64,000 bases of DNA from an uncultured Fusobacteriaceae bacterium. Lineage in GTDB: Bacteria; Fusobacteriota; Fusobacteriia; Fusobacteriales; Fusobacteriaceae. Shown piece after piece: positions 4,376 through 11,814 of this stretch (positions are counted from its first letter, which is position 1; each line of letters begins with the position of its first letter). The notes under the pieces were generated by a model. It was not told where the DNA came from and made no database searches. It saw only the letters and a program-made list of their open reading frames with translations. The stretch covers positions 124,001-188,000 of the forward strand of contig CAMQWJ010000001.1 of the NCBI GenBank assembly GCA_947038515.1, in the 5' to 3' direction. A program made the translations under genes and the position numbers.

Positions 4376-5410
4376 TTAAAAACGATAACCAACAGCAAAA
4401 GTTGCATATTTTCTATGACCAAAACCATATTCAACTATTGCTTCTAATGAAGGCGTAACTTCATATCTTAAACCCAAAGAATAGTTCCAAGGATATGTTG
4501 CTTTCTCTTCAACATTAAATTTACCTGGTATCTCAATTCCAGGTAAAACAAACACATCTTTAATATTTCCTTTTAAAGTTTGAGTTATTTCTTGATACAT
4601 TGCCCCTACCCAAAAAGAAATAGGTCTTTTTAAAAGAATAGTATGGTATCCTATTTTTGGGGAAATCACCAAGGCTCCAACATTTCCTTCAACTATGTCA
4701 AGAGAAGTATAGGTATAATTTATGTCTGTTAAAGCAAAGAAATTTTTATACCCCCCAACAAGTGTCATTCCAGCTCCATATGTCAGTCCTTTATAATTAA
4801 GGATAAAATTTCCACCTTCAATTTTCTGTGAAGGAATCGGAATATTAATTTCTTTTCCAAAAACGTCCAAAGTCAATCCATTAACTGCAACAGTAATCGG
4901 TGCTATTGATTTTCCTTTTGTTTCTCCAACTAGACCATAAACATTCAAAAATGGAAAAACCCATACATCTCCTCTAATTGTCCTTGTTGTATTTTTTGTT
5001 TTTGCCTTTTTTCCTTCTACTTTGATATTTCCATTGGCAAAATTTTTATCAATATCAATAACAGTATTTTCAACCGTATTAATTGCCGCATTTGCCATAA
5101 TTTTTGCTAACCACTCCTTATTTCCATCAGCTATAAATTTTTGTTTAATCAGTTCTGTTAAAGCTGCCTTATTTTCTGTAAAAGGCTTAAATTCTTTAAC
5201 CACCAAATTACCTATACCTAAAAGTTCCAGTCGTTCTATATCAACCTCTTGATCCATATCAACATAGATCAAGTTTATTCCGTAGGGTTTAGGTAAAACA
5301 TATCCCCGTTCTCTAGCTTCTTTTCCATATATAGGGAAAAATCGTTCTTCTCCAAATGAAGAAAAAAAACATACAATAAAAATACATACGGTATACAACT
5401 TTAATTTCAT
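4376..5410 (-). CDS. Predicted outer-membrane beta-barrel protein
   Basis: The 344-residue product begins with a cleavable signal peptide (basic MKLK, hydrophobic core to about residue 20). The second half is rich in alternating hydrophobic residues with Tyr, Gly and Phe, as in membrane beta-strands. The chain ends in FAVGYRF, and a terminal Phe is the usual signal for insertion by the BAM machinery. The N-terminal part (about 30-160) mentions no known enzyme motif and may form a soluble or plug-like region. The strong ribosome binding site AGGGGGGAG lies two bases before ATG. It is the first gene of a three-gene envelope set that ends at a terminator near 3400-3445. The substrate, if it is a channel, cannot be read from the sequence. 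Confidence 0.75.
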   Translation of the reverse strand: MKLKLYTVCIFIVCFFSSFGEERFFPIYGKEARERGYVLPKPYGINLIYVDMDQEVDIERLELLGIGNLVVKEFKPFTENKAALTELIKQKFIADGNKEWLAKIMANAAINTVENTVIDIDKNFANGNIKVEGKKAKTKNTTRTIRGDVWVFPFLNVYGLVGETKGKSIAPITVAVNGLTLDVFGKEINIPIPSQKIEGGNFILNYKGLTYGAGMTLVGGYKNFFALTDINYTYTSLDIVEGNVGALVISPKIGYHTILLKRPISFWVGAMYQEITQTLKGNIKDVFVLPGIEIPGKFNVEEKATYPWNYSLGLRYEVTPSLEAIVEYGFGHRKYATFAVGYRF

Positions 5411-5539: not shown

Positions 5540-5890
5540 TTATCTTCTTATTTCTTTTATTCTTGCTTTCTTACCTGACAATTCTCTTAAGTAGTAAAGT
5601 TTAGATCTTCTTACTTTTCCTACTTTTAAAACATCAATTTTTTCAATCATTGGTGAGTTAACCGGTATTATTCTTTCTACACCTATTCCACCAGTTACTT
5701 TTCTTATTGTAAATGTTTTAGCTACACTTCCACCATTTACTCTAATTACTACACCTTCAAACAATTGTATTCTTTCTTTGGCCCCTTCTTGAACCTTGTA
5801 AGAAACTACTATTGTATCTCCTGCTTTAAATCCTGGTAAATCTGTTCTAATGTACTCTTTTTCTACTAATTCAATCAATCTTTCTTTCAT
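5540..5890 (-). CDS. rplS: 50S ribosomal protein L19
   Basis: L19 sits at the 30S-50S interface of the ribosome. The 116-residue product matches family length and pattern: an N-terminal helix ([13 protein letters not shown]), the [13 protein letters not shown] strand, the FEGVVIR segment and the C-terminal basic [24 protein letters not shown] eight bases before ATG fixes the start. Unlike many bacteria, it is not next to rpsP, rimM or trmD. Here it appears to be a single-gene unit with its own promoter in the gap after the SpoIID-like gene and its own terminator. The roughly 60-base leader could carry autoregulatory structure, but I see no convincing one. Confidence 0.97.
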
Positions 5891-6000: not shown

Positions 6001-7494
6001 TTACCATACTTCTTTAGGAGTTGCTGAAAAACCTGAAGAAGTAGAATAGAAATATGTTGAGATAGGTTTCCCCTCATAAGTTAAAATAATTTTTTTAGTT
6101 TTTCTTATGGCCTCTGTTGCTATTTCTGTTTCATTTTGCTTATTATAAACTTGACTTGCTACAGTATCATCTACATTTATGCCATATTTAGCATATTTTC
6201 TTCCTATAATCGCATGTGCAACATAGGTTCTCGCAGTTATTGCTTGTGCTTTTAATGCTTCTAATCCAAAACTAGACATCATCTCACTTACAACCACACC
6301 TTTCAAATAATCTTCAACATCCACTTTATTCACCAACAATAGATTTCCTCTAGGAGAGAATCTAATATTAAATTCTCCATAATATGTTGGGTAATTTTTA
6401 TTTGCAATCTTTCTTCTAATAGAAGTTACTCCTATTTTTCCTTTTGATAAAACTCTGATTTCTGCTTTTGTTGTTAAGATTTTTTTTCCTTTACTTTTTA
6501 TAATTATATTTCCATTCCATCTAGTAATCTCAATTTCAGTATTACTAGAAATTTTTTTGCTTACTCTTCCAGACTTTATTATAATATTTTTAGGTGACTT
6601 CAAAGTTATTCTCTTATGCTCTAGTGAGGAATTATTCGTTATCCCCACTAGTATATCTCCTTTAAAGTTTGGAACTGAAGACATCTTACTATATTTAACA
6701 TCTTGGTAGTAATGATTTAAAATTTCTTTATAATTTGCATTTTTTTTCTTTGATAAGTCATATGCACTATATTGTGGCATTCCTACTCCATGACCAAAAC
6801 CTCCACCATATATCATATAAGAATTTCTTTTTTTCTCAATAGCAAAGAAAGCAGAAGGTAACATATTTACATTTTTTTTCAAAATTTTTCCTTTTCCTTT
6901 CAAAGCAATATTTCTATTTATTCCAGTTCTACTCTTGGAAAAACCAAGAACTTTTCTTATATTATACTCTTTCACCACTACAAATGTATTTTTACTTCCT
7001 ACAATGACTAAATCCATTGCAATTGTAGAAGGACCACGTTTTTCTACTCTAATTTCTTTAAGAGAACCCAGAGGATTTCTCCCTAATGGTTTCAGGCTCC
7101 ATTTCCCTCCAACCAATGTATATACACTCTTCTTACTTTGTTTTTTAATTGCTACTAAATTGGCATTTAGTACCTTCTCTAAAACTGAAGTTGGATATTC
7201 TACATTCCATCTCCAATATGGTGATAAATCACCATATCCTTCAATTTTATCATTTTTATATATTTCTAATATTTTTTTTTCATTTAAATTTTTTATTGGT
7301 CCTATTGATGTTATATCTTGAACATTGACTAAATACGGTATTTCATTTCCTTTCCTGTACGACACTTCTTTCAATTTATCTTTTTTATAATTACTATAAA
7401 CTTTATTATTTGGTTTTACTTTTTCTATTTTAGAACATCCTAGCATCGCTATAAATACGAATAATAAAATAAAAATTTGTTTAATATTTTTCAT
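6001..7494 (-). CDS. SpoIID/LytB-domain lipoprotein, circularly permuted
   Basis: SpoIID/LytB-family proteins act on peptidoglycan; SpoIID itself is a lytic transglycosylase acting on denuded glycan. The product has 497 residues and a lipoprotein signal with Cys20 (AMLGC). The domain order is unusual. Residues about 51-268 match what is normally the C-terminal half: PYLVNV at 53-58, RWNV at 95-98, GSLKEI, then GHGVGM at 234-239 followed by NYKEILNHYY. Residues about 278-376 look like the usual N-terminal strand-rich domain. Residues 380-497 match the usual first half of the core: EDYLKGVVVSEM at 394-405, ALKAQAITARTY at 413-424 and STSSGFSATPKEVW at the end. In standard proteins that last segment runs directly into PYL. 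All expected blocks appear present, including a Glu at 404 (VSEM) in the position of the catalytic glutamate. It lies 62 bases after kdsB in an envelope-biased operon. Confidence 0.9.
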   Translation of the reverse strand: MKNIKQIFILLFVFIAMLGCSKIEKVKPNNKVYSNYKKDKLKEVSYRKGNEIPYLVNVQDITSIGPIKNLNEKKILEIYKNDKIEGYGDLSPYWRWNVEYPTSVLEKVLNANLVAIKKQSKKSVYTLVGGKWSLKPLGRNPLGSLKEIRVEKRGPSTIAMDLVIVGSKNTFVVVKEYNIRKVLGFSKSRTGINRNIALKGKGKILKKNVNMLPSAFFAIEKKRNSYMIYGGGFGHGVGMPQYSAYDLSKKKNANYKEILNHYYQDVKYSKMSSVPNFKGDILVGITNNSSLEHKRITLKSPKNIIIKSGRVSKKISSNTEIEITRWNGNIIIKSKGKKILTTKAEIRVLSKGKIGVTSIRRKIANKNYPTYYGEFNIRFSPRGNLLLVNKVDVEDYLKGVVVSEMMSSFGLEALKAQAITARTYVAHAIIGRKYAKYGINVDDTVASQVYNKQNETEIATEAIRKTKKIILTYEGKPISTYFYSTSSGFSATPKEVW

Positions 7495-7556: not shown

Positions 7557-8324
7557 TTATAGTGTTATATTATTTCTCTTAATATATTCTATAACTTTTT
7601 CTAAATCTTCTTGTGTATCAATCCCTTGAATAGAAGAAGGTGTTTCTAAAACTTTTATTTCAAATCCATTCTCTAAAACTCGAAGTTGTTCCAATGATTC
7701 TGATTCCTCCAATGGAGTTGATATCATTTCTGAATATTTTTTTACAAACTCTTTTTTATACCCATAGATTCCAACATGTTTATAATAATTTTCTAAATTT
7801 AAAGTTCTAGGATAAGGAATTGGACTTCTTGAAAAATAAAGTGCATAATCATTTTTATCAGTTACAACCTTGACACAATTAGGATTTTCAATCTCTTCCA
7901 TTTTTGTGATTTTATGTTTTAACGTTCCCATAAGAAGAGATTCTTCATTTTTAAAAGCTTCTATTAATAAATTAATCATTTCTGCCTCTATAAGTGGTTC
8001 ATCCCCTTGTATATTAATTATTACTTCATGATTATCCACTTCAATATCTGTGTTTTGACAATTTTCTAATTTTTCACAAACTTCTGCTATTCTACTAGTT
8101 CCGTTTTCATGATTAGAACTTGTCAAAATAACTTTCCCTCCAAATCTAATAACTTCATTATAAATCCTAATATCATCTGTTGCAACGATGACTGAATCAA
8201 GCTTAGATTTTATTGCTCTTTTATAAACCCACTCTATCATACTATGACCTTCAATATTTTTCAAAGGTTTTCCTTCTAATCTTGTGGAAAAATATCTAGC
8301 TGGAATCACTCCTAAAAACCTCAT
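7557..8324 (-). CDS. kdsB: 3-deoxy-manno-octulosonate cytidylyltransferase (CMP-Kdo synthetase)
   Basis: KdsB activates Kdo with CTP for attachment to lipid A in the cytoplasm. The 255-residue product has the family length and motifs: the N-terminal nucleotide-binding VIPARYFSTRLEGKPL, then SVIVATDD, the INIQGDEPLIE block near 105-115, and the YYKHVGIYGYKKEF segment followed by ESLEQLRVLE. An AAGGGG ribosome site lies seven bases before ATG. It follows glyS by 53 bases and precedes the SpoIID-like gene. Together with the family-9 glycosyltransferases near 54-57 kb it shows that the organism makes an LPS with a Kdo-containing inner core. Confidence 0.96.
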   Translation of the reverse strand: MRFLGVIPARYFSTRLEGKPLKNIEGHSMIEWVYKRAIKSKLDSVIVATDDIRIYNEVIRFGGKVILTSSNHENGTSRIAEVCEKLENCQNTDIEVDNHEVIINIQGDEPLIEAEMINLLIEAFKNEESLLMGTLKHKITKMEEIENPNCVKVVTDKNDYALYFSRSPIPYPRTLNLENYYKHVGIYGYKKEFVKKYSEMISTPLEESESLEQLRVLENGFEIKVLETPSSIQGIDTQEDLEKVIEYIKRNNITL

Positions 8325-10492: not shown

Positions 10493-11368
10493 CTATTTAT
10501 TTTTTTTTAAAAGTGGATAACCAAGTTTAGCTCTATTTTCTACAAATATTTCTGCACATCTCTTTGATAAATTTCTTACTCTTAAGATATAAGACATTCT
10601 TTCAGTTGTGGAAATAGCTCCTCTTGCATCAAGAACATTAAAAACATGTGAACATTTTAAAACATAGTCATAAGCTGGAAAAACAAGTTTATTCTCCAAA
10701 GAGACAATTGCCTCTTTTTCAAAATCATCAAACCATCTAAAATGACTATCTAAATCAGCTATTTCAAAAGAATATTTTGAATTTTCATATTCAGATTGAA
10801 ATCTAATATCTCCATATTTAATTCCTGGTGCCCATTCAAGATCATAAACAGTTTCTTTATTTTGAATATATAAAGCCAATCTTTCTAATCCATATGTTAT
10901 TTCAACAGGAATTATTTCAAGCTCCAATCCCCCCACTTGTTGGAAATATGTGAACTGAGTTACTTCCATTCCATCTAACCACACTTCCCAACCTAGTCCC
11001 CAAGCACCCAGTGTTGGCGATTCCCAATCATCTTCTACAAATCTTATGTCATGCTTTTCAATATCAATCCCAAGCATTCTTAAGCTCTCTAAATACATCT
11101 CTTGAATATTATCTGGTGACGGCTTCATTATCACTTGAAATTGGTGATGTTGATAGACTCTATTAGGATTTTCACCATATCTACCATCTTTAGGTCTTCT
11201 TGATGGTTCAACATAGGCTACATTCCAAGGCTCTGGTCCAAGTGACATCAGAAAAGTATTTGGATTAAATGTCCCAGCTCCTGTTTCTATATCATAAGGA
11301 TTTCCCAATACACACCCTTTTGAACTCCAATATTTTTGTAAAGCAAATATCATTTCTTGAAAAGTCAT
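10493..11368 (-). CDS. glyQ: Glycine--tRNA ligase alpha subunit
   Basis: This is the catalytic subunit of the tetrameric class II glycyl-tRNA synthetase, 291 residues. It begins [19 protein letters not shown] and carries the class II core: [25 protein letters not shown], then [14 protein letters not shown], and the [13 protein letters not shown] segment. A longer in-frame reading adds 20 residues upstream, but GGGAGGAG seven bases before this ATG and the family N-terminus support the shorter form. Its ATG overlaps the lspA stop (ATGA), so it is probably translationally coupled to lspA. I saw no T-box leader, as expected for an internal operon gene. Confidence 0.97.
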
Positions 11369-11814
11369 TTTTTTCTCCTCCCAACAAAGTAGTCTACTAT
11401 TAATAAAAAGGCTCCAATACATATCCAAGCATCAGCTAAATTAAATATATAAGTCCAAAATATTCTAAAATCCATCATATCAACAACAAAACCTCTAAAT
11501 ATTCTATCAATCATATTTCCAAGTGCTCCAGCAAAAATGAATGAATATGCTATTTTTTCTATTTTTCTACTATTTTTCAACTCTTTTCCAATATGAATAC
11601 CTATTCCTATAATAATAATAATAGTCAAGATTGATACTAATTTAACTGAATCTTGAAACATTCCAAAAGCAATCCCCCTATTTTGTACATATGTTAAGTG
11701 AAAAATTCCTTCAAAAAATGATAAAGTTTCACCATGACTAAAATTTTCCACTACAAAATATTTACTCAATTGATCAAATATAATCAAAAATAATATTAAT
11801 AACGCATAAAACAT
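11365..11814 (-). CDS. lspA: Lipoprotein signal peptidase (signal peptidase II)
   Basis: LspA is an inner-membrane aspartyl protease that cuts the signal peptide of diacylglyceryl-modified prolipoproteins. The 149-residue product has four membrane segments and the conserved blocks [40 protein letters not shown] and [11 protein letters not shown]. The catalytic pair is the Asp in NMIDR and the Asp in NLADA. A GTG two codons upstream is possible, but AGGAG spaced five bases from this ATG favours the later start. It sits two genes downstream of the sensor kinase, between ileS and glyQ, overlapping glyQ by four bases. The lspA-ileS pairing is common in bacteria. Several lipoproteins in this window (3948, 6001) are likely substrates. 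Confidence 0.95.

Follow-up and report, generated by a model that had tools for sequence, protein, structure and literature searches.

Gene and protein layout

In the 64,000-nucleotide stretch of uncultured Fusobacteriaceae DNA analysed here (the window), an open reading frame on the minus strand (6001..7494) encodes, from an ATG start, a protein of 497 aa followed by a stop codon. This ORF was confirmed to encode a circularly permuted SpoIID/LytB lipoprotein, and is neither a broken gene nor an assembly error. Its upstream neighbour is kdsB (7557..8324, minus strand) and its downstream neighbour in the source genome, as assigned from the ORF list and locus comparison, is rplS (5540..5890, minus strand). 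Elsewhere in the window, a 344-aa protein encoded at 4376-5410 (minus strand) has by eye the look of an outer-membrane barrel and gave no NCBIfam match. glyQ (10493-11428, minus strand) is listed with a TTG start some 20 codons before the point at which the family profile begins (residue 21), and the true start is probably an internal ATG.

The features of the permuted protein, all encoded on the minus strand, were mapped by translation, alignment and structure prediction. Homologue alignments, together with a helix at residues 2-18 in the model, delimit a signal peptide (residues 1-20; 7435..7494) with a lipobox ending at Cys20, a residue that is invariant in 24 aligned permuted homologues and also in a 16-homologue alignment. 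The N-terminal hydrophobic stretch and the invariant lipobox Cys are the features of a lipoprotein, and suggest that the protein is exported and lipidated. Residues 21-49 (7348..7434) form, by alignment and model, a variable tether between the lipid anchor and the core, within which low AlphaFold2 confidence is confined to residues 19-29.

The tether is followed by the B half (residues 50-272; 6679..7347), which corresponds to the C-terminal half of canonical proteins by structure-sequence match, half-profiles and models, and carries the motifs PYL..., YWRW, GHGVGM and EIL-HYY. The first part of this moved half is PYLVNV (residues 53-58; 7321..7338, from the translation and junction alignment), with RW at residues 95-96 and GHGVGM at residues 234-239 (6778..6795, from the translation and alignment). 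A short linker (residues 273-279; 6658..6678), defined by the junction alignment, bridges the former C-terminus and the former N-terminal side. The A half (residues 280-497; 6004..6657), assigned from PF08486, the 4rwr match, half-profiles and models, comprises the canonical beta-rich part and catalytic core: EDYL at 394-397, SEM at 403-405, ALKAQA at 413-418, a PF08486 match in the profile search at 383-473 (6076..6348), and STSSG at 484-488 (6031..6045, by translation and alignment), nine residues short of the C-terminus. Glu404 (6283..6285), which is invariant in the alignment, aligns with the catalytic Glu101 of the C. difficile SpoIID structure 5txu, and the A half terminates at the Trp of STSxG...VW. 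The positions that the initial annotation had given for PYLVNV, RW, GHGVGM, EDYL, SEM, ALKAQA and STSSG...VW were all as stated.

The two halves occur in reversed order

Membership of the SpoIID/LytB family is supported by scores of 86.3 bits for PF08486 (cut-off 23) and 168.1 bits for TIGR02669 (cut-off 83.3), the latter in two stretches, of which the best aligns residues 387-497 with profile positions 2-111 of 270. The score for the SpoIID equivalog TIGR02870 (116.2 bits) lies below its cut-off of 234.75. The solved SpoIID structure 4rwr was matched in two pieces with their order reversed, query residues 388-497 aligning with chain residues 63-183 and query residues 194-273 with chain residues 242-322. 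Half-profiles built from the permuted proteins gave the order A-B in 64/64 Bacillota relatives and B-A in all permuted proteins, a split that shows the reversed order not to be due to chance; no permuted order was found with the half-profiles among 65 Bacillota-type loci. The co-linear N-to-C order of the SpoIID/LytB domain is thus absent from the permuted protein, as judged from the 4rwr match and the half-profiles. The earlier proposal that the N-terminal half matches the C-terminal half of SpoIID is borne out by these two analyses, and the suggested inspection of PF08486/SpoIID-family hits returned two matches, in reversed order.

The breakpoints were examined by alignment with the closest canonical relatives, whose loop has the sequence W-(S/A)DGDGSFPGxxxPYL. 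Permuted proteins end on this W, and the sequence before PYL at their new N-terminus varies, for example NNFGQEVPYL or DNFPIAREIGYL. By eye, it resembles what is left of FPGxxxPYL. The other junction reads HYYxxxxLxNMxxxxGxxxxIRVGI; here the helix and strand of the former C-terminus run into the beta-rich part with few residues between. Of the 24 aligned permuted proteins, 23 end exactly at the Trp of STSxG...VW; the remaining one is a diverged second copy. An exact break between EVW and PYL had been claimed; this holds on the Trp side, whereas about a dozen canonical loop residues (W-SDGDGSFPG-) have been rewritten at the new N-terminus.

Predicted structure

AlphaFold2 was run on 16 permuted sequences, with one canonical Bacillota relative serving as the comparison model. 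The permuted model (pLDDT 86.6, pTM 0.84) and the canonical model (pLDDT 88.5, pTM 0.85) share their secondary structure elements nearly one by one: elements at 72-270 of the permuted model (H72-80 E96-101 H102-119 E124-128 ... H241-250 H255-262 E267-270) correspond to canonical 375-580, and those at 280-473 to canonical 115-312. The structure prediction that had been proposed as a check gave the same series of elements as the canonical model, rotated, and the two halves are predicted to fold together into an ordinary SpoIID core. The canonical beta domain at residues 37-108, an N-terminal accessory domain of the closest canonical relatives, is absent from the permuted model.

SpoIID was the top Foldseek hit for both models. 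Since Foldseek alignment depends on chain order, a short alignment is expected for a permutation: the permuted model aligned with 4rwr over 185 columns only (TMt 0.34), covering one half, as compared to 373 columns (TMt 0.74) for the canonical model and 5i1t.

Distribution in the Fusobacteriota

In a first survey of 61 relatives, full-length matches were found in eight genus groups of the source family, and elsewhere there were two-piece matches or none. A search of 98 Fusobacteriota genomes with the permuted profile gave end-to-end matches in 44 (46 copies), all in the Fusobacteriaceae; the other Fusobacteriaceae and the other families gave either two-piece matches or none. No genome among the 98 contained both the permuted and the canonical form. 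In searches of contigs, an alignment query recovered homologues and a single-sequence query gave no match.

Recurrence of the order in other Fusobacteria, one of the checks proposed at the outset, bears directly on whether an assembly join or sequencing artefact could have produced it. Although the source genome is a 23-contig assembly, the identical order and end point occur in 44 genomes, several of them single-contig, and the carriers include the named isolates F. mortiferum An814, F. gastrosuis and Cetobacterium sp. 2A in addition to several MAGs. An artefact is refuted by this recurrence, and we assign it a negligible probability. The same recurrence upholds the view that the gene is not broken.

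Two of the 44 carriers have a second, diverged permuted copy; these copies (L032 and L033, in genomes G002 and G001) belong to the source genus group, that of G002 not being adjacent to kdsB and that of G001 being without the terminal Trp. In one permuted homologue (L024, genome G030), an in-frame TAG near the 3' end removes the STSxG...W end, which may represent either an error or early decay. The SpoIID profile alignment found nothing in several genera of the sister family f4 (genomes G039-G043, G045-G051, G053, G054, G056, G059 and others), which suggests outright loss of SpoIID in those genera.

Independent permuted proteins were not found in 250 Bacillota genomes at E<=1e-90, which is weak evidence; the Fusobacteriota permuted proteins score 1e-165 or better in the phylum search.

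Parent lineage of the permuted gene

The B half of the permuted proteins is 215-240 aa long, compared to about 145 aa in fusobacterial canonical SpoIID. Long Bacillota proteins have the extra region of ~80 residues; fusobacterial canonical SpoIID lacks it. Gene trees were constructed with the permuted sequences rotated to canonical order, sampling Fusobacteriota and a Bacillota set selected by similarity. In these trees the permuted and long Bacillota proteins lie on one side of a branch with an SH-aLRT of 99, and fusobacterial canonical SpoIID lies on the opposite side, together with SpoIID proper and other Bacillota paralogues. Constraining the permuted proteins to group with fusobacterial canonical SpoIID costs 52 log units and is rejected (p-AU 0.002). 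Trees of the A half and the B half agree, so the two halves share one source and the gene is no chimaera. How well the permuted proteins hold together as a single gene-tree clade, with the two divergent second copies included, varies between trees, with support of 47 to 99. By sequence comparison, the permuted gene is judged to derive from a long Bacillota-type SpoIID/LytB paralogue, and not from the resident fusobacterial spoIID.

The resident fusobacterial spoIID might instead itself have been duplicated, permuted and relocated behind kdsB, with no foreign gene involved. This would give the observed mutual exclusion of permuted and canonical genes. However, the permuted B half carries the ~80-residue region of the long Bacillota proteins, and both halves group with the long Bacillota type, the alternative being rejected by the AU test. 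Descent from the resident gene was rejected on the trees and the extra B-half region, and we regard it as very improbable.

Locus history and replacement of the native gene

Across the phylum, canonical spoIID lies in the run mltG-rSAM-spoIID-tilS-ftsH; some lineages lack rSAM. The permuted gene immediately follows kdsB in 8/8 permuted genus groups, and 7/7 permuted genomes inspected retain an unbroken mltG-(rSAM)-tilS-ftsH run that lacks only spoIID. Judged by locus and by the gene trees, the permuted gene shares neither locus nor common descent with the resident fusobacterial SpoIID. In a tree of mltG, tilS and ftsH, the permuted species form a single clade (100/100) nested among canonical species, and all species examined from this branch have the permuted in place of the ordinary form. 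Together, this nested clade, the emptied native locus and the position behind kdsB indicate that the native enzyme was displaced a single time by a permuted one of foreign or paralogous origin. Most simply, the permuted gene was acquired once and native spoIID was lost once, both on one branch.

Proposed origin and function

Taken as a whole, we consider it probable that the locus encodes a lipid-anchored, likely active permuted enzyme, gained once from a long Bacillota-type lineage and replacing native spoIID. The permutation most likely arose when the gene was duplicated in tandem and in frame and the outer halves were then lost. In the permuted chain the short linker connects the former C-terminus with the former N-terminal side, the new ends lie in the loop that separates the STSxG...W motif from PYL, and PYL is preceded by a new signal peptide bearing a lipobox; the product is a predicted lipid-anchored periplasmic SpoIID/LytB-type enzyme. 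The gene would have been acquired a single time, by the ancestor of one Fusobacteriaceae clade and from a lineage carrying a long Bacillota-type SpoIID/LytB paralogue, and would have settled behind kdsB, with the native canonical spoIID lost from the mltG-rSAM-tilS-ftsH locus. Tandem duplication and trimming is the likeliest origin, plausible but unproven: half-profiles identified a natural A-B-A-B tandem protein in Alkalihalobacillus pseudalcaliphilus, showing that a tandem intermediate is viable, and none was found in Fusobacteriota.

The catalytic Glu, STSxG and GHGVGM are invariant or nearly so across the 24 diverged permuted proteins, and the E101A variant of C. difficile SpoIID is inactive (PMC6221140). 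Because of this motif conservation, the permuted protein most likely cleaves peptidoglycan glycan strands in an E404-dependent manner. A protein that had become a non-enzymatic peptidoglycan-binding lipoprotein, the permutation being tolerated after catalysis was lost, seems unlikely. The new termini are near STSxG in sequence and could disturb the active-site side, but loss of catalysis is difficult to reconcile with the retention of all three motifs. For the active enzyme, the substrate is probably glycan strands stripped of peptides by an amidase, and its action would be at wall-remodelling sites such as the septum. The source genome contains one Amidase_3 protein, which could make the denuded substrate; no SPOR-domain partners were found in this genome. 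A SpoIID homologue of a non-spore-forming outer-membrane bacterium is described as cutting glycans and locating to the septum (PMC6635528).

As a tentative and rather doubtful suggestion, the permuted lytic transglycosylase may have spread through a Fusobacteriaceae clade and ousted the native enzyme because its membrane anchor, formerly on the beta-rich domain, now attaches at the loop next to the active site; the result would be a tethered, outer-membrane-facing glycan cutter whose reach or control has changed.

Significance and comparison with known systems

Natural circular permutations of enzymes are uncommon. Rarer still are cases in which a permutation can be mapped onto a species tree together with a parent paralogue, a new locus, an emptied old locus and a tandem intermediate elsewhere. 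No published permuted SpoIID was found in the open-access literature, subscription journals being outside the scope of the search. All permuted species go back to one event, so that comparison of permuted and canonical members of the same family offers a direct test of what permutation does to a wall-cutting enzyme. 'SpoIID' in Fusobacterium and Cetobacterium is no ordinary orthologue, a point of relevance to annotation and to structural studies of the fusobacterial cell wall, and order-dependent profile and fold searches recover only half of the permuted protein.

The closest known proteins are the long Bacillota SpoIID/LytB proteins (e.g. Neobacillus dielmonensis L069, 594 aa), which are sister to the permuted proteins in the trees and share with them whole-length homology of both halves, the motifs and the extra B-half region. 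They differ in having the canonical order and an additional N-terminal beta domain, and the signal peptide of L069 is without a lipobox, unlike that of the permuted protein. SpoIID of sporulating Bacillota (PDB 4rwr, 5i1t, 5txu; TIGR02870) has the catalytic Glu, STSxG and GHGVGM in common with the permuted protein, and both halves can be aligned, but the halves are in the opposite order, the B half is shorter and the permuted protein falls under the TIGR02870 cut-off. The canonical SpoIID of other Fusobacteriota belongs to the same domain family and probably serves the same cellular function, and differs in order, locus, closest relatives and median length (381 aa, compared to 516 aa for the permuted proteins). 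The chlamydial homologue from Waddlia, compared on the available text of its paper (PMC6635528), is likewise a SpoIID-domain protein of a non-sporulating outer-membrane bacterium, glycan-cutting and septal, and permutation is not mentioned in that text. The tandem protein of Alkalihalobacillus pseudalcaliphilus (1290 aa; L094:5656-9528, plus strand) consists of two full copies, A-B-A-B, with a C-terminal LPxTATN sorting signal. Its inner B1-A2 stretch is in permuted order; it keeps the outer halves, and as an independent event serves only as a model of the intermediate.
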